DNA of 7,484 nucleotides, from assembly GCA_021161545.1 (NCBI GenBank), contig JAGHAJ010000253.1, positions 1 to 7,484 on the forward strand, given 5' to 3'. The notes beneath the pieces were generated by a model, which ran no database searches, was not told the DNA's origin, and saw nothing but the letters and a program-made list of their open reading frames with translations. Both the position numbers and the translations under genes were made by a program. This document shows, in pieces, positions 154 to 7,484 of this stretch. The stretch's first letter is position 1; each line of letters begins with the position of its first letter. This DNA is from Synergistota bacterium. Its GTDB lineage: Bacteria; Synergistota; JAGHAJ01.

Positions 154-202
154 CTGGAACATATCTTCAATACCTATCTGTGTTTTGATCCGATTTGGGT
201 AC

Positions 203-231
203 TTGACTATGACAATAAATGTTGTTATAAT
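203..231 (+). promoter_or_regulatory. Sigma-A/sigma-70 promoter P1 of the first operon
   Basis: TTGACT (203-208) and a perfect TATAAT (226-231) are separated by 17 bp. A TG dinucleotide one base before the -10 box (223-224) makes it an extended -10 promoter. Transcription would start near 237-241, giving a leader of about 30 bases before the start codon at 270. Of all promoter-like sequences in the window this is the strongest. It closely resembles P2 at 5447-5474, including the spacer. Confidence 0.85.
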
Positions 232-238
232 TTTAGTG

Positions 239-257
239 GTACAAAGTTTGTTACAAA
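239..257 (+). promoter_or_regulatory. Candidate operator at the P1 start site (GTACAAA / TTACAAA repeat)
   Basis: GTACAAA at 239-245 and TTACAAA at 251-257 are direct repeats whose conserved C residues are 12 bases apart, about one helical turn. TTTGTTACAAA (247-257) is also a perfect 5+1+5 palindrome. The element overlaps the expected start site and ends just before the SD. A related pair with the same 12-base spacing follows P2. Binding of a shared repressor or activator is inference; no regulator is encoded in the window. Confidence 0.45.
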
Positions 258-269
258 GGAGGTACTAAG

Positions 270-1049
270 ATGATGGGCAACAAAGTTAAATTGCGGTACC
301 TTTCCCACTCTGCCTTTTTGCTCACTACTGAAAGAGATGTGAAGGTTATTATTGACCCTTATGTGAGTAATAATCCGAATGCTCCCTTTAGTTTGGATGA
401 GATTCCAAGGATTGACATAGTTATTGTAACTCATGCCGCGTTTGATCACTTAGGAGATGCGTTCTCCCTAGTTAGGAGAGATGGTGCTTACCTAGTTTGC
501 GATGTTTTAGTCCGACAAATGGCTTATACAGAAGGGATTTCTAAGGATCAGGTTAAAAGCTGTAGTTACGGAGGTACGGTTGAGCGGAAAGGGGTTTCTA
601 TTCGAGCTTTGCAAGCTATGCATGTAAATTCGATAGTAAATGATGAGGGACAGTTAAGTTTAGGTATACCTCTTTCTTTTTTAATTACCACATCGGATGG
701 GCTCCGGATTTACCATGCAGGAGATACTTGCATCTTTAGCGATATGAAGCTAATAGGCCAGCTTTACCGGCCACATATAAGTTTAATTCCTGTTGGGTCT
801 GCTTCACCTCAATATGGAAAAGACCTACCGCCTGTTGAAGCTGCAATGGCTGCTCAATGGATAGGTAGCGAATTCACTATACCCATTCATTATTGGGATT
901 CTAAAGACGCTACTGAGTTTTATGACATAGTTGGCCATCTTGTCCCTTGGATGGAAGTAAGAGTTATGGAATATGGGGAGGAATTGGAGTTCTTGGTTAT
1001 AAAGCAAGGTGCCCGCACGACTTTTATACTGCAAGAGAGAGAATGGTGA
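270..1049 (+). CDS. Metallo-beta-lactamase-fold hydrolase, UPF0173/UlaG-like, with altered HxHxDH motif
   Basis: This 259-residue cytoplasmic protein has the layout of UPF0173/UlaG-type metallo-beta-lactamase-fold proteins. HSAF is at 13-16, IDPY at 28-31, the metal motif THAAFDHLGD at 54-63, a further His at 118, YHAGDT at 148-153 and PIHY at 205-208. Relatives include the L-ascorbate-6-phosphate lactonase UlaG and assorted hydrolases. The motif normally reads HxHxDH; here H55, D59 and H60 remain but the middle His is Ala57 (codon GCG, so not a one-base change). The other candidate ligands (H118, D152, H207) are kept. AAAGGAGG at 255-262 places the start at ATG 270 (or ATG 273, next codon). 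It is the first gene after P1, ahead of the TRAP genes, so a lactone or ester linked to the imported acid is a plausible substrate; this is inference. Confidence 0.8.
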   Translation: MMGNKVKLRYLSHSAFLLTTERDVKVIIDPYVSNNPNAPFSLDEIPRIDIVIVTHAAFDHLGDAFSLVRRDGAYLVCDVLVRQMAYTEGISKDQVKSCSYGGTVERKGVSIRALQAMHVNSIVNDEGQLSLGIPLSFLITTSDGLRIYHAGDTCIFSDMKLIGQLYRPHISLIPVGSASPQYGKDLPPVEAAMAAQWIGSEFTIPIHYWDSKDATEFYDIVGHLVPWMEVRVMEYGEELEFLVIKQGARTTFILQEREW

Positions 1050-1132: not shown

Positions 1133-2173
1133 ATGATTAGGAGGATAGGAATAGGGGGAATGGTGGTGATTCTTAGTTTGTTTTTGTGGATACTGCCTGT
1201 TTTGTCCCATGTTACTGTGGTTCGCTTTGCCGCAACTTCTATGACTGCTGGTACCTATATGTTGGGAGTTGGGTGGTCTAATGTGCTAAGGAAGTATGCA
1301 CCCAATATTCGCATGGTGTGTTTGGCTAAAGGGGGAACAACGAAGCTTCTCAGGGGGATGGTGAATGGTAAATGGGATATAGCATTTATTGGTTCTCCTC
1401 ATCTTGTGTGTGCGAAGAAGGGAATATTACTTTTCAAGAGAGAAAAAGCTTATTCTAAGAGAAAGTACTACGATCCAACACGCGTACTCTTTGCCATTAC
1501 TACAGGTTGGGCTAACTATGTTGTTCGGGCAGATTCTGGTATTCACACCGTCCTTGATTTGAAAGGTAAGAAAGTAGACCTTGGTATGGCAGGTGGTTTT
1601 GGTGGTGTTATGACCAAGGCTGTTTTTAAAGCGGAGGGGTTAGATATAGAGAAGGGAGATTATAAGGGGATATATGTTCCTGTAGATCAAGCTATGGACC
1701 AGCTTCGTGATAATACTGGTTTGAGCGTTGCTCTGGTGTGGGGTGGAATTCCACAACCGCTTATAACAGAGCTCTCCGCTAAAATACCACTCCGTTTGCT
1801 AAGCTTGACTAAGAAAGGGTTTAGGAGATATCAAAAGAGCTTTGTTGTTGGTCCCTATACGCTCTTGAAGATTATTTCGCCTGAGGAAATAAAAGAGGCC
1901 TATAAAGGAAGGGTCATCAATACTTCTCCCGTCTATACGTGGACAGTTCCTTTGATGGTAGTGGTGCGAAAAGATATGAGTAAGAAGTTAGTGTATACAT
2001 TAGTTAAAGTTTTTTGGGAACATCTCAACGAGGTTAAGAGTGTTTCTAAGCAATTGAAGAGCGTATCTATCAAAACAGCATTAAAGAGATTGTCGGCACC
2101 ATTGCACCCGGGCGCATTAGAGTATTATAAAGAAGTAGGTGCATTGAAATACTATGAAAATCTGACATATTAG
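1133..2173 (+). CDS. TRAP transporter solute-binding receptor, TAXI family
   Basis: This 346-residue protein is the extracytoplasmic receptor of a TRAP transporter, of the TAXI (TRAP-associated extracytoplasmic immunogenic) type. An N-terminal signal sequence has Arg-Arg at 3-4, a hydrophobic core at about 7-24 and a likely cleavage near 25-27 (VLS|HV). There is no clear lipobox Cys, so it is probably secreted or membrane-tethered rather than a lipoprotein. Family marks are the opening FAATSMTAGTYMLG (32-45), the central DLKGKKVDLGMAGG region and the closing LHPGALEYYKEVG (324-336). Length is normal for the family. It should bind the substrate and pass it to the permease encoded downstream. 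TAXI ligands are poorly known (glutamate, other dicarboxylates and related acids have been suggested), so the ligand is not assigned. Confidence 0.92.
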   Translation: MIRRIGIGGMVVILSLFLWILPVLSHVTVVRFAATSMTAGTYMLGVGWSNVLRKYAPNIRMVCLAKGGTTKLLRGMVNGKWDIAFIGSPHLVCAKKGILLFKREKAYSKRKYYDPTRVLFAITTGWANYVVRADSGIHTVLDLKGKKVDLGMAGGFGGVMTKAVFKAEGLDIEKGDYKGIYVPVDQAMDQLRDNTGLSVALVWGGIPQPLITELSAKIPLRLLSLTKKGFRRYQKSFVVGPYTLLKIISPEEIKEAYKGRVINTSPVYTWTVPLMVVVRKDMSKKLVYTLVKVFWEHLNEVKSVSKQLKSVSIKTALKRLSAPLHPGALEYYKEVGALKYYENLTY

Positions 2174-2257: not shown

Positions 2258-4147
2258 GTGGAGCTTTCTCCAAAGTACAGAACTTATGTGATATTTAAGG
2301 AATACCTTCTAAAGGTGCTCGCTCTTTCTCTTAGCCTATTTATTATTTTTACTATAGTAAGAGGGCAATTCTCTGTGGGAATTCAGAGAGGTACTGTACT
2401 TATGTTGGGGAGCCTTATGGTACTTCTTAAACCGCGAAAGGAAATTATTATCCCTCGTGCTTTTTGGTTGAGTGAAATCTTTGATTGGATATCTGCAGCT
2501 TTAATTGTTGGTTGCACATTGTATGTGTATATAGAATGGTTTGATATGGCAGAGTATAGAGCTGGTGCTCCTAATACGGGCGACTTGATTCTTTTTGTTA
2601 TTACTATCTTAGTTGTGTTTGAGATTACACGGCGTACATCGGGTTTCATTGTACCGATGGTTGCATTGGCCTTTTCGATATACGAGGTGTTTGGTGAATA
2701 CTTTCCAGGGATATTGTACCATCCGAATGTGCCTATTAAGGAGTTTTTAGAGGGGTCTTTTGGTACATCGGGTATTTATGGCATAGTTCTTTCAGTTATG
2801 GTAGGTATAATATATATTTTTATTATATACGGTGCTTTTCTTAGGGTTTCTGGTGCTGGTGATGTATTTATAGAGTTATCTTATATGCTGTTGGGCCGCT
2901 TTCCAGGTGGACCTGCACAAACGGCGGTTCTTTCATCTGCCCTGTTTGGTTCAATATCTGGTTCTCCTCCAGCAAATGTTGTGGCAACTGGGAATTTCAC
3001 GATTCCTTTGATGAAGAAGGTAGGTTACAAACCGCACCAAGCTGCTGCAATAGAAGCGTGCTCTTCTACGGTAGGTCAGATTATGCCTCCTGTGATGGGG
3101 GTTTCAGCATTTATCATGTCACAGATAACTGGAATACCTTACCTCCGAATATGCTTAGCTTCTTTGCTTCCAGCAGTACTATTCTCATTTTCGCTTTTGG
3201 TTTTGGTCTATTTAGAAGCTAAGAAGGAGCAAATACCCTTGATACCTCGTAAAGACATTCCTCGTGTAAACATTGCCTTTATTCGTAAATTTATTATTTT
3301 GTCTTTTTCGTTAGGGATACTTGTTTTCATGCTTATTAGAGGTAATTCCCCTGCATTTTCAGCTCTTTCGGGGATAATTGCTTTAATTGGTGGGAGCTTT
3401 TTCGATAAGTCAATGCGAATGAGCCCTCGAAAGATTCTTAAGGCTCTAATAGAGGGTGCTCAGGATGGTCTTTCGATATTAGCTATTTGTGCTTTGCTTG
3501 GGATAGTCGTTAACGCGATCAACTCTACAGGAATAGGTTTGTTACTTTCTCAGTTGATAATATCTATTGTTAAGGATAGTTTGTCTCTAGCTTTAATTGT
3601 AACTATGATTTCGGCGATTATACTTGGTATGGGTTTACCAACTGTGCCGGCTTATTTGATGGTTGTATTGGTGGCAGGTAGAGCTTTGACCCAGTTAGGA
3701 ATCCCTTTACTGTTAGCACATCTTTTTTCTTTATACTACGCTATTATAGGAACCATAACTCCTCCGGTATGTATTAGTGCTTATACAGCTGCAGGCATAG
3801 CAAAAGCAAAGCCCATGAAAACTGGGTTTACTGCTTGGTGGTACGGTTTGGTTGGGTTTGTGGTACCTTTTATTATGGTATACAATCCTGAACTTGGCTT
3901 CTTTAGAGGTACATACCTTTCTACTGTGATTGTTTTTGTGTTTAGTTTAGTGGGAGTGTTTTCTTTTGTGGCATTTGAGCAAGGTTTTTTACTTAGGCGT
4001 TGTGGCTTGATTTCTCGAGGTTTTTTGTTGTTAATGGCTGTGGCGATTTTTTATCCTTCTTATTGGACGAAGCTTGCGGGTTTAATAGGCTTTATTGGCA
4101 TAATTTGCTATCAACTCAAAAAGAAAGAGGTGCAACCGATTTCGTAA
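2258..4147 (+). CDS. TRAP transporter fused permease (DctQ-DctM), TAXI-associated
   Basis: This 629-residue integral membrane protein combines the small (DctQ-like) and large (DctM-like) TRAP subunits, as is usual with TAXI receptors. The N-terminal part (about 1-165) has several hydrophobic segments, starting at 17-34. The large-subunit part carries the hallmarks GSISGSPPAN (231-240), then the ATGNFTIPLMK and EACSSTVGQIMPPVMG stretches, GMGLPTVPAYL (457-467) and ITPP (500-503). It should move an organic acid inward using a Na+ or H+ gradient. The start is GTG 2258 behind AAAGGGGTGA (2241-2250); no other in-frame start fits the SD better. No interruption is visible. About 100 residues after the ITPP/AWWYG region form extra hydrophobic segments ending in a Lys-rich tail. 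Confidence 0.93.
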   Translation: MELSPKYRTYVIFKEYLLKVLALSLSLFIIFTIVRGQFSVGIQRGTVLMLGSLMVLLKPRKEIIIPRAFWLSEIFDWISAALIVGCTLYVYIEWFDMAEYRAGAPNTGDLILFVITILVVFEITRRTSGFIVPMVALAFSIYEVFGEYFPGILYHPNVPIKEFLEGSFGTSGIYGIVLSVMVGIIYIFIIYGAFLRVSGAGDVFIELSYMLLGRFPGGPAQTAVLSSALFGSISGSPPANVVATGNFTIPLMKKVGYKPHQAAAIEACSSTVGQIMPPVMGVSAFIMSQITGIPYLRICLASLLPAVLFSFSLLVLVYLEAKKEQIPLIPRKDIPRVNIAFIRKFIILSFSLGILVFMLIRGNSPAFSALSGIIALIGGSFFDKSMRMSPRKILKALIEGAQDGLSILAICALLGIVVNAINSTGIGLLLSQLIISIVKDSLSLALIVTMISAIILGMGLPTVPAYLMVVLVAGRALTQLGIPLLLAHLFSLYYAIIGTITPPVCISAYTAAGIAKAKPMKTGFTAWWYGLVGFVVPFIMVYNPELGFFRGTYLSTVIVFVFSLVGVFSFVAFEQGFLLRRCGLISRGFLLLMAVAIFYPSYWTKLAGLIGFIGIICYQLKKKEVQPIS

Positions 4148-4171: not shown

Positions 4172-4231
4172 ATGGAAGAAGAGGTTTGGGAGTATAATTT
4201 GAGGGGGGAACTTAGGGGATGGATATTGTAA
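4172..4231 (+). CDS. Possible 19-codon small ORF overlapping the Ldh2 start
   Basis: ATG 4172 lies 7 bases after a full GGAGG (4160-4164) and opens a 19-codon frame, MEEEVWEYNLRGELRGWIL. Its TAA at 4229-4231 lies 8 bases past the ATG 4219 start codon of the next gene, in a different frame. Its ribosomes would traverse the next gene's SD (4201-4208) and start, so translational coupling is possible. Its SD looks better spaced than that of the dehydrogenase gene. No homology is recognised and it may be fortuitous. Confidence 0.35.
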   Translation: MEEEVWEYNLRGELRGWIL

Positions 4232-5271
4232 TCAAGGAGGGTAGGTTAAGGAGGTTTTGTGAGAACATTTGCTTAAAAGTTGGAATGTTACCGCAAGATA
4301 CCTTTGTGTTTGTTGATACTATAATCTTTGCAAGTTTAAGAGGTATTGATTCTCATGGTATTATGCGTTTCCCGTTTTACATTAAGCGATTGGAAAGAGG
4401 TGGGGCAAGAGTAAAACCCTGTATAAAGAAGATTGAGGAAGGGATTTCTACAGTTTTAGTTGATGGTGACAGTGGAATGGGCCAGGTGGTAAGTATGTAT
4501 GCAACGAATGAAGCTATTGCCAAAGCGCAGAAGTCGGGTGTGTCTGTAGTGGGAGTTAGAAACAGTTCTCATTTTGGTGCAGCTTCTTATTATTCTGTAA
4601 AAATGGCAGAAAAGGGTATGGTTGGGGTTTCTATGAGTAACACCTTGCCCATAATGGCTGCGTGGGGTGGTAGTAGTAGAGCTATTGGTAATAACCCAAT
4701 AAGTGTTGCAATCCCTTATGAGGAAGGGAAACCTATAGTGCTGGATATAGCCATGAGTAAGGTAGCAGGTGGGAAGGTGAGGCTGGCGGCAAAAGAGGGG
4801 CGAAAAATACCATTTGGTTGGGTGTTGGATATAGGGGGTAAGGAGACCAATGATCCCGTGAATTTCGTGAAAGGAGGTGCATTGTTACCCTTTGGTGAGC
4901 ATAAGGGTTACGGATTGGCTGTAATTGTAGAAGTATTAGCTGGCGTTCTTACCGGAGCAGGAATGTTGCATGAGGTAAAATCCTGGCTTAAGACTCCTGA
5001 GGCTCCAACGAATACTGGGCATTGTTTTATGGCCATAAGTATTGAGAGCTTTATGCCCATGAGAGATTTTAAAAAGAGATTGGATTGGATGGTAAAAGAA
5101 CTTAAATCTACCTCTCTGTTGAGTGGCTTTGAGGAAATTCTTGTACCAGGGGAGATAGAATATAGGATAGAGAGACAAAGGAAAATAGAAGGAATTCCGG
5201 TTTCGATTGAAATATGGGAAGATTTGAAAAGGTTATCAAAGTATTATGGAGAACCTTTAGATGTGAGTTAA
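4219..5271 (+). CDS. Ldh2-family (malate/L-lactate-type) 2-hydroxyacid dehydrogenase
   Basis: This 350-residue soluble NAD(P)-dependent oxidoreductase belongs to the Ldh2/MDH2 family, which includes YiaK (2,3-diketogulonate reductase), ureidoglycolate dehydrogenase and ComC (sulfolactate dehydrogenase). Family marks are GIDSHGIMRF (42-51, His46), DGDSGMGQ (82-89), NSSHFGAASYY (115-125, with His118 a likely catalytic residue), MSNT (139-142), GNNPISVAIP (157-166), LDIAMSKVAGGK (175-186) and FGEHKGYGLA (225-234). Length is normal. The start at ATG 4219 follows a G-rich SD (GAGGGGGG, 4201-4208), and an in-frame TAG at 4213 rules out an earlier start. It lies 71 bases after the permease gene with no terminator between, so it is probably in the P1 operon. 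The exact substrate is not determinable; oxidation or reduction of the imported 2-hydroxy/2-keto acid is likely. Confidence 0.9.
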   Translation: MDIVIKEGRLRRFCENICLKVGMLPQDTFVFVDTIIFASLRGIDSHGIMRFPFYIKRLERGGARVKPCIKKIEEGISTVLVDGDSGMGQVVSMYATNEAIAKAQKSGVSVVGVRNSSHFGAASYYSVKMAEKGMVGVSMSNTLPIMAAWGGSSRAIGNNPISVAIPYEEGKPIVLDIAMSKVAGGKVRLAAKEGRKIPFGWVLDIGGKETNDPVNFVKGGALLPFGEHKGYGLAVIVEVLAGVLTGAGMLHEVKSWLKTPEAPTNTGHCFMAISIESFMPMRDFKKRLDWMVKELKSTSLLSGFEEILVPGEIEYRIERQRKIEGIPVSIEIWEDLKRLSKYYGEPLDVS

Positions 5272-5446: not shown

Positions 5447-5474
5447 TTGATTTTTACAAAAATTGTTGTATAAT
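5447..5474 (+). promoter_or_regulatory. Sigma-A/sigma-70 promoter P2 of the dehydrogenase-aldolase unit
   Basis: TTGATT (5447-5452) and TATAAT (5469-5474) are separated by 16 bp; a second TATAAT overlaps at 5474-5479. The preceding 175 bases after the Ldh2 stop show no gene, no convincing terminator and no other clear promoter. The element aligns well with P1: both read ACTTGAYT, then ACAA, then TGTTG, then TATAAT, with only one base of gap. Confidence 0.8.
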
Positions 5475-5501
5475 ATAATATGTAACAATTAATGTAGCAA
5501 A
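5456..5501 (+). promoter_or_regulatory. Candidate operator overlapping P2 (TTGTT / AACAA half-sites)
   Basis: AATTGTT (5461-5467) and AACAATT (5484-5490) form an inverted repeat centred on the -10 box. ACAA-N3-TTGT (5456-5466) lies in the promoter spacer. GTAACAA (5482-5488) and GTAGCAAA (5494-5501) are direct repeats with their C residues 12 bases apart, the same spacing as at P1. The pattern suggests a transcription factor covering the promoter and start site. Confidence 0.5.
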
Positions 5502-5520
5502 CAGGAGGCAGTGAGAGAAT

Positions 5521-6495
5521 ATGAAAAGGTTTAAAGTGATCATTACGGGACCAAAGATAGCTGAAGAGGGTATGCAAATGTTAGAAAAGGAATGTGTTGT
5601 TGTCTATCTGGAGCCTTATCCTACTGTTGTAGATTTAATGAAGGCGGTAAGAGAAGAGGTAGCGGATGCGCTTCTTGTAAGGACAGGCCGTATAACCTCT
5701 GAAGTTATTGAGGCTTCACCTAACCTAAGGGTTATTGCAAAGCATGGTACGGGTGTCGATAACATTGATGTAGCTGCTGCAACTGCAAGAGGTATACCTG
5801 TGTTGATTGCCACCTTTGCAAACTATGAGTCGGTTGCTGAACACGCTTTAGCCTTAATGTTTGCATTGGCAAGAGGAATTCCATGGTTGGATTCTCGAAT
5901 CCGAAAGGGTTATTGGGATAAGATGGACTATAAAGGAGAAGAGTTGTTTGGTAAGACTCTAGGCGTAATTGGATTTGGTCGCATAGGTCGCAGGTTGAGA
6001 GAATTGGTAAAACCCTTAGAAATGAAAGTCCTTGTATACGATCCCTTCTTGGAGCCGATGGATTTTCCTATGGATGTTATTCGAGTGGATAAGTTAGATA
6101 CCTTACTTGAATCGTCTGATATTGTGAGTATTCACTGCCCTCTCACGGAAAAGACAAAACATCTAATTGGAGAAAGGGAGTTAAAACTGATGAAGAATAC
6201 AGCATGGCTAATAAATACTGCTAGAGGGAAAATTGTGGATGAGAAAGCCCTTATTGAGGCACTTAAACTTGGGGAAATAGGTGGGGCGGGTATAGATGCT
6301 TTCTATAGTGAACCACCTGATAGTGGGAGTGTGCTCTTTAACATGGAAAGGGTTGTAATGACTCCCCATGTTGGAGGTGTTACTAGGCAATCGCTGGTGA
6401 GGATGGGAGAAACCTCTGCGAAGAATGTACTTGATATTCTTAAGGGGATAAAACCAGACGCAAGGTACATAGTTAACCCTGAAATTTATAAATAA
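5521..6495 (+). CDS. D-isomer-specific 2-hydroxyacid dehydrogenase (phosphoglycerate dehydrogenase-like)
   Basis: This 324-residue NAD-dependent enzyme has the full set of family marks. KHGTGVDNID is at 74-83, the nucleotide-binding GFGRIG at 151-156 with Asp174 at the end of beta-2 (favouring NAD over NADP), and the catalytic triad is Arg235 (NTARG), Glu264 (DAFYSEPP) and His283 (TPHVGG). It lacks the C-terminal ACT regulatory domain of many serine-pathway SerA proteins, and its neighbours are catabolic, so a role in 2-hydroxyacid or hydroxypyruvate/glyoxylate turnover is more likely than serine synthesis. SlcC-type (S)-sulfolactate dehydrogenase is a possible relative. ATG 5521 follows AGGAGG (5503-5508) at a rather long 12-base spacing; no better in-frame start is seen. 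It is the first gene after P2. Confidence 0.9.
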   Translation: MKRFKVIITGPKIAEEGMQMLEKECVVVYLEPYPTVVDLMKAVREEVADALLVRTGRITSEVIEASPNLRVIAKHGTGVDNIDVAAATARGIPVLIATFANYESVAEHALALMFALARGIPWLDSRIRKGYWDKMDYKGEELFGKTLGVIGFGRIGRRLRELVKPLEMKVLVYDPFLEPMDFPMDVIRVDKLDTLLESSDIVSIHCPLTEKTKHLIGERELKLMKNTAWLINTARGKIVDEKALIEALKLGEIGGAGIDAFYSEPPDSGSVLFNMERVVMTPHVGGVTRQSLVRMGETSAKNVLDILKGIKPDARYIVNPEIYK

Positions 6496-6515: not shown

Positions 6516-7289
6516 GTGAAAACGGCAGGTAATCTCAGAGAGATGCTAAGGAGCGGTAGAACTGCAGTGGGAGTTGTGGTAGATTCATACAGTCCAACAA
6601 TAGTAGAAGTTGCAGGTTATAGTGGCCTAGACTTTGTTAGGATAGATGATGAACATGCATGGAGACGAGATGACTCTATGGAACATATGATTAGAGCGGC
6701 TTACGTAGCTCATATTACTCCTATAGTTCGTGTGGATAAGAATGATATTGATGTCATTGGAAAAGCACTATGTTTGGGGGCTAGCGGGATAATAGTTTCG
6801 AATATTGTTGATAGGACTGAAGTTGAAAGAGCTGTAAAAGCTGCAAAGTTTCCGCCTGTAGGTGTTCGAGGCTACTCAAGTATGTGCTTTTCGGGGCATT
6901 GGGGGGCTAGATCGGGCAGGGAATGGGTGGAGTGGAGTGATAGAGAAAGCGTAGTGGGTATTATGATAGAAAATAAAGACGCGATAAATAAGCTTGATGA
7001 GATATTTTCTGTTGATGGACTGGACTTCGCTCTTTTTGGTTTTTCTGATTATTCTATGTCCTTGGGTTTTCGTGAACCTAAAAGAAACCACCCGGAGGTT
7101 CAAGCAGCTTTGGTTAAGACAGTAAAAGTTGCTAGCAAGTATGGTAAGGTTGTGGCAGTTGGTTTAGGCAAGGCGTGGAAAGAAGATATTGATAGATATA
7201 CTAAGTTAGGTTGTAGGATGATAGAACTAGGGCATGATGTAGCTATACTTAGGCGAACATGGGCAGAAATGAGAGCACATATTAAGTAA
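6516..7289 (+). CDS. HpcH/HpaI-family class II 2-keto acid aldolase
   Basis: This 257-residue TIM-barrel protein resembles HpaI, RhmA and GarL, metal-dependent aldolases that split 4-hydroxy-2-keto acids to pyruvate (or a similar 2-oxoacid) and an aldehyde. From the GTG start, the likely catalytic base is in DDEH (44-47, His47), the pyruvate-binding Arg is Arg72 (PIVRVD), PPVGVRG is at 113-119, and the metal ligands are Glu152 (MIEN) and Asp178 (GFSDYSMSLG). The last motif differs from the usual GPxDLS by Phe for Pro and Tyr for Leu, beside the conserved Asp. HpaI length is normal. The gene starts 20 bases after the dehydrogenase stop, so the two are probably co-transcribed from P2. Substrate is unknown; a 2-keto-3-deoxy sugar acid or a related hydroxy-keto acid fits. 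Confidence 0.88.
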   Translation: MKTAGNLREMLRSGRTAVGVVVDSYSPTIVEVAGYSGLDFVRIDDEHAWRRDDSMEHMIRAAYVAHITPIVRVDKNDIDVIGKALCLGASGIIVSNIVDRTEVERAVKAAKFPPVGVRGYSSMCFSGHWGARSGREWVEWSDRESVVGIMIENKDAINKLDEIFSVDGLDFALFGFSDYSMSLGFREPKRNHPEVQAALVKTVKVASKYGKVVAVGLGKAWKEDIDRYTKLGCRMIELGHDVAILRRTWAEMRAHIK

Positions 7290-7343: not shown

Positions 7344-7484
7344 GTGAAAAGTTTTGGAGCGAAAGCTAATGTAATGAGGACAGCACTGACTGCTTGGAAG
7401 TTAGGGTTAGCTATATTCTTATTACCGTACGCTTTTGTTTACAATCGGTCTCTTTTAATGGTAGGGAAACCTATGGAAATAGCA
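7344..7484 (+). pseudogene. C-terminal fragment of a second TRAP permease (DctM), N-terminal part missing, runs off window
   Basis: The frame from GTG 7344 to the window end encodes 47 residues, including MRTALTAWKLGLAIFLLPY and then FVYNRSLLMVGKP. This matches the region just after the ITPP motif of TAXI-type TRAP permeases and aligns with the intact permease of this window (AKPMKTGFTAWWYG...FVVPFIMVYNPEL) at roughly 16 of 37 positions. In-frame sequence upstream ends at a TAG at 7314-7316, only 54 bases after the aldolase stop, so some 500 residues of permease are absent. A G-rich SD-like run (7334-7346) lies just ahead. I read it as an internally deleted gene remnant. It differs too much from the nearby permease to be a recent duplication. 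Its 3' end is outside the window. Confidence 0.7.

Follow-up and report, generated by a model that had tools for sequence, protein, structure and literature searches.

Two predicted sigma-A promoters, P1 and P2, serve a single organic-acid uptake and catabolism locus and carry the same arrangement of short elements, namely an inverted repeat in the spacer between the -35 and -10 boxes and a pair of boxes about 12 bp apart downstream of -10. We tentatively read the paired boxes, from sequence, as operators of one FadR-type (FCD) GntR repressor common to both promoters, a candidate that we place somewhat short of an even chance. If so, the hydrolase/TRAP/Ldh2 genes would form one regulon with the dehydrogenase/aldolase genes, which would support a single catabolic pathway and offer a starting point toward its substrate. 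Regulation by paired repressor-type boxes is ordinary and routine, and would not surprise a specialist.

Promoters and genes of the locus

The window, i.e. the whole stretch of DNA analysed, is one entire contig (C50, 7,484 bp), cut at both ends, from a 1.58-Mb draft genome that is 82% complete; 184 other genomes of the phylum served as the comparison set. All six genes of the window lie on the + strand, and their products fit one locus for organic-acid uptake and catabolism. The genes and promoter elements are as follows.

203..231, + strand, P1 sigma-A promoter, TTGACT-N17-TATAAT (11/12 consensus matches)
212..225, + strand, P1 spacer element ACAA-N6-TTGT, common to P2 (ACAA at 212, TTGT at 222)
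237..256, + strand, P1 tandem boxes TGGTACAA and TTGTTACAA, about 12 bp apart, proposed GntR/FadR-type operator
257..264, + strand, Shine-Dalgarno AGGAGGT region of the hydrolase gene
270..1049, + strand, metal-dependent hydrolase of the metallo-beta-lactamase superfamily (NF001911)
1133..2173, + strand, TAXI-type TRAP solute-binding protein (TIGR02122)
2258..4147, + strand, TRAP fused permease (TIGR02123)
4219..5271, + strand, Ldh2-type malate/L-lactate dehydrogenase (PF02615)
5447..5474, + strand, P2 sigma-A promoter, TTGATT-N16-TATAAT (10/12 consensus matches)
5456..5469, + strand, P2 spacer element ACAA-N6-TTGT (ACAA at 5456, TTGT at 5466; the last T also belongs to the -10 box)
5480..5500, + strand, P2 tandem boxes ATGTAACAA and ATGTAGCAA, 12 bp apart, proposed operator
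5504..5508, + strand, Shine-Dalgarno GGAGG region of the D-2-hydroxyacid dehydrogenase gene
5521..6495, + strand, D-2-hydroxyacid dehydrogenase (PF02826 and PF00389)
6516..7289, + strand, HpcH/HpaI aldolase (PF03328)

When the promoter-like sites of the window were ranked, P1 came out best and P2 joint second-best, with hexamers 17 and 16 bp apart, respectively, and an open reading frame downstream of each, and we class the two as predicted strong sigma-A promoters. The -35 and -10 boxes, the ACAA, the CAA boxes and the GGAGG that the initial annotation had placed in P1 (201-262) and P2 (5445-5508) were all found where it had put them. The spacing ACAA-10-TTGT-19-ACAA-12-RCAA is identical in the two promoters, while the -10 box is offset by one base between them relative to these four elements. 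In both, the tandem boxes begin 5-6 bp after -10 and follow an imperfect [AT][GT]GT-N0/1-[AG]CAA pattern, with the C residues of the CAA boxes 12 apart in each promoter, at 242/254 in P1 and at 5486/5498 in P2. From this position the boxes of both promoters, those of P1 at 237..256, would cover the expected transcription start.

P2 also contains, at 5448-5503, an imperfect 56-bp palindrome with 28-nt arms that are 71% complementary, beyond the values obtained in 400 shuffles. The same shuffle comparison placed the palindromy of P1 at no more than chance, and a long dyad was dropped as a feature common to both promoters, as it holds for P2 only.

Since no terminator is predicted in the interval separating the Ldh2 gene from P2, the locus may be read as a single longer transcript with P2 as a promoter internal to it. 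Elsewhere in the window, a strong hairpin (2188-2223; 16 pairs and a 4-base loop, followed by TTTTAG) lies between the genes for the TAXI binding protein and the TRAP permease; it is possibly a partial terminator, yielding more binding protein than permease. An open frame at 7344-7484, VKSFGAKANVMRTALTAWKLGLAIFLLPYAFVYNR..., runs off the contig and matches the fused TRAP permease model at positions 503-539 only (E 7e-8); the N-terminal part of the permease is absent, and the frame is either what is left of a decayed permease or the product of an assembly joint. In the 1.58 Mb there are 17 matches to the DctM family of TRAP permeases, making this a notably TRAP-rich genome for its small size.

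Extent and distribution of the likeness

Aligned without gaps, P1 and P2 agree at 36 of 62 positions, and the 100-bp upstream regions containing them reach a local alignment score of 44. Against a background made up of the 100-bp upstream regions of 127 other genes, from 40 contigs of the same genome, P1 and P2 averaged 17-18 and reached at most 33 and 35. Only one in 8,000 real upstream pairs of the genome scored 44 or more, one near-identical pair having been left out. With the -35, -10 and Shine-Dalgarno sequences fixed and the rest shuffled, the score was equalled or exceeded in 63 of 20,000 mononucleotide shuffles (p = 0.003) and in 106 of 20,000 approximate dinucleotide shuffles (p = 0.005). 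Much of the score derives from these three consensus sequences, and the excess over them is modest. The initial annotation had held that such similarity would not persist by chance, which agrees well with the comparison among real upstream regions and less strongly with the shuffles.

The likeness beyond the consensus sits in the spacer and not in the downstream part. The spacers match at 12 of 16 positions, above all 299 other promoter pairs (maximum 11), with a p of 0.008 for the spacer taken alone. The downstream parts match at 12 of 24 positions, a value equalled or beaten in 17 of the 299 other pairs, and the region downstream of -10 is not significant when aligned alone (p 0.41). To describe the two promoters as alignable from end to end, as the initial annotation did, is therefore an overstatement.

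These figures bear directly on the main rival to the GntR reading, namely that the two promoters look alike because both are AT-rich and have consensus sigma-A and Shine-Dalgarno sequences, with some coincidental CAA/TTG matches, and that they have no common regulator. The rate at which shuffled pairs score as high, the non-significant downstream part, AT contents of 71% and 77% and the fact that the pair was chosen by eye all favour it. It accounts poorly for a spacer match above every other promoter pair and for an exact four-element spacing that occurs in the genome only at P1 and P2, and we regard it as rather doubtful. That one factor controls both units, as first proposed, is plausible given the unique composite and the GntR-like boxes, although the statistics favour a regulator over a mere pair of AT-rich consensus promoters no more than moderately.

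A pattern search for the composite ACAA-N6-TTGT-N15-ACAA-N8-RCAA retrieved P1 and P2 alone in their own 82%-complete genome, and one match among the 184 other genomes of the phylum. Because the composite was found only at these two promoters, the combination of spacer and repeats is not a feature shared by many unrelated promoters of the genome examined, the outcome that the initial annotation had named as counting against it. Within the same genome, a sequence profile of the pair matched only P1, P2 and the reverse strand of P2; the exact tandem TGKWRCAA-N4-TGKWRCAA recovered P1, P2 and one match inside long open frames; and the -35 plus spacer pattern gave no further exact match and four places at one mismatch. 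Several candidates for further regulon members were set aside: a third exact match to ACTTGAYTNNNACAA (C205) has neither TATAAT nor boxes, of the near matches to the tandem repeat, those inspected fall within open frames and look coding, and matches to TATAAT plus box on C72 and C187 are inside long open frames. No close orthologous clusters were found among the genomes of the phylum, where the best match to the hydrolase is 36% identical.

The order of similar elements over about 60 bp, together with a weak likeness at the start of the coding sequences (first 60 bases, p 0.03), could also reflect derivation of P2 from the P1 region by duplication, or the reverse, as the initial annotation had suggested. 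However, the upstream flanks do not align (p 0.9 and 0.5), so a broad duplication is not supported; moreover, the encoded proteins belong to unrelated families and the -10 box is one base out of register with the other elements. We consider this origin very improbable.

The repeat upstream of P1

Positions 154-182 are a copy of a dispersed repeat, CTGGAACATATCTTCAATACCTATCTGTG, with about 23 copies in the genome (three of them from outside the pattern search). In at least 17 of these, a -35 box lies 18-20 bp downstream of the repeat end in a promoter scoring at least 9/12, an arrangement expected by chance at less than 1% per site. The P1 -35 begins 20 bp downstream of the repeat end. The genes behind the copies, judged by eye, are varied and include tRNA, ArgG-, IlvD- and GcvT-like and pilin genes, and one copy (L268) adjoins mutator-family (Transposase_mut) reading frames. 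Members of the TnGBS/ISLre2 and ISKra4 groups of mutator-type elements insert in a fixed orientation 15-17 bp upstream of sigma-A promoters (PMC3942029). The repeat resembles them in its fixed, oriented position upstream of -35, at a slightly longer distance (18-20 versus 15-17 bp), and has the appearance of one end of an insertion sequence of the promoter-targeting mutator type. This agreement with a known targeting habit supports P1 as a working sigma-A promoter, as predicted from its consensus.

Two neighbouring sequences were also observed. The frame-1 tail at 1-78, RLAGAILIDINEEWVTGRMYLNMEK* (25 aa), has by eye the appearance of a mutator-type transposase C-terminus, and gave no Pfam or NCBIfam match at such length. 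The segment 128-149, TTTTACACAATTATATGGACTT, has exact copies with differing right flanks at three other places (C172, C72 and C101), and is apparently another insertion-sequence-like end abutting the 154-182 repeat.

Candidate regulators and known operators

Under the GntR reading, one FCD repressor would occupy the tandem boxes of both promoters, block RNA polymerase at the start site, and be released by a carboxylic-acid ligand, turning both operons on. The box cores are TKGT and ACAA at P1, separated by N0 and N1, and ATGT with ACAA or GCAA at P2, separated by N1. A similar placing was found at promoters linked to FCD-GntR genes. In the same genome, the FCD-GntR gene of C172 is preceded by ATGTATACAATTATGTATACAT (L276 4494-4515), a pair of GTATAC palindromes 12 bp apart that directly follow -10; this pair, lying between -10 and the gene start, is likely an autoregulatory tandem operator. 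In the relatives G002 and G004, TGGTTAGACCA and TGGTTATACCA follow the -10 box between the FCD-GntR and D-2-hydroxyacid dehydrogenase genes, and in a third relative (G008) an FCD-GntR gene heads a same-strand run of peptidase, TAXI, TRAP and dehydrogenase genes.

Tandem GntR-like boxes 11-12.5 bp apart occurred at five distinct places in 353 kb, compared with about 1.2 in shuffles, and three of the five (P1, P2 and the C172 site) directly follow a clear -35/-10. Because the rule was framed after P1 and P2 had been seen, the count lends support but does not test these two independently. Six GntR genes were above the cut-off in the genome, two of them adjoining or overlapping TRAP operons and none linked to the P1/P2 locus; the 7,484-bp contig, cut at both ends, contains none, and from so truncated a stretch it does not follow that the regulator acts from elsewhere, as the initial annotation concluded.

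Counting against the GntR reading, the region of the boxes taken alone aligns no better than expected by chance, and a start-site operator leaves the spacer element, statistically the best common part, unexplained. A regulator of another family (e.g. MarR- or IclR-like), acting on the spacer inverted repeat ACAA-N6-TTGT, on the direct repeats, or on both, would account for that element, whose orientation is opposite to the GntR core, and would suit the 56-bp palindromy of P2. It fits less well with the chance-level palindromy of P1 and with the matching placing seen, in this genome and elsewhere in the phylum, at promoters linked to GntR genes, the regulator-gene search having covered GntR; we hold it to be unlikely. 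A composite operator, in which a GntR-like regulator reads the spacer inverted repeat together with the tandem start-site boxes (fixed 10/19/12 spacing) in an unusual register, with the -10 box slid by one base, would take in both parts and appears less likely still. Sites of TnrA/GlnR, Rex, Crp and OhrR were considered and dropped on spacing.

A literature search for regulons in bacteria of this type and for NanR repeats returned nothing useful. Among described systems, FadR-type GntR sites consist of TKGT/ACMA boxes in which 2-3 nt usually separate GT from AC; there is often a further half-site at a distance of 7-12 nt, and the ligands are carboxylic acids (PMC4494728). P1 and P2 resemble them in their GT...AC cores, in AT-rich DNA near a promoter, in an additional half-site within that range and in serving carboxylate-related genes. 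They depart from them in imperfect box palindromy and in a GT-AC distance of 0-1 nt; this distance counts against a FadR-type assignment, as do the P2 boxes, which begin with ATGT, the second ending in GCAA. Some members of the FadR subfamily read direct repeats (PMC4494728), as with NanR, which binds TGGTATAW repeats instead of one palindrome (cited in PMC4494728); the P1/P2 unit, TGKWRCAA with a 12-bp period, differs from that of NanR, and the likeness lies in the direct-repeat arrangement. The C172 boxes differ from those of P1 and P2 in their GT-AT-AC cores, their near-perfect palindromes and the genes they precede, but share with them the arrangement of a pair 12 bp apart directly after -10.
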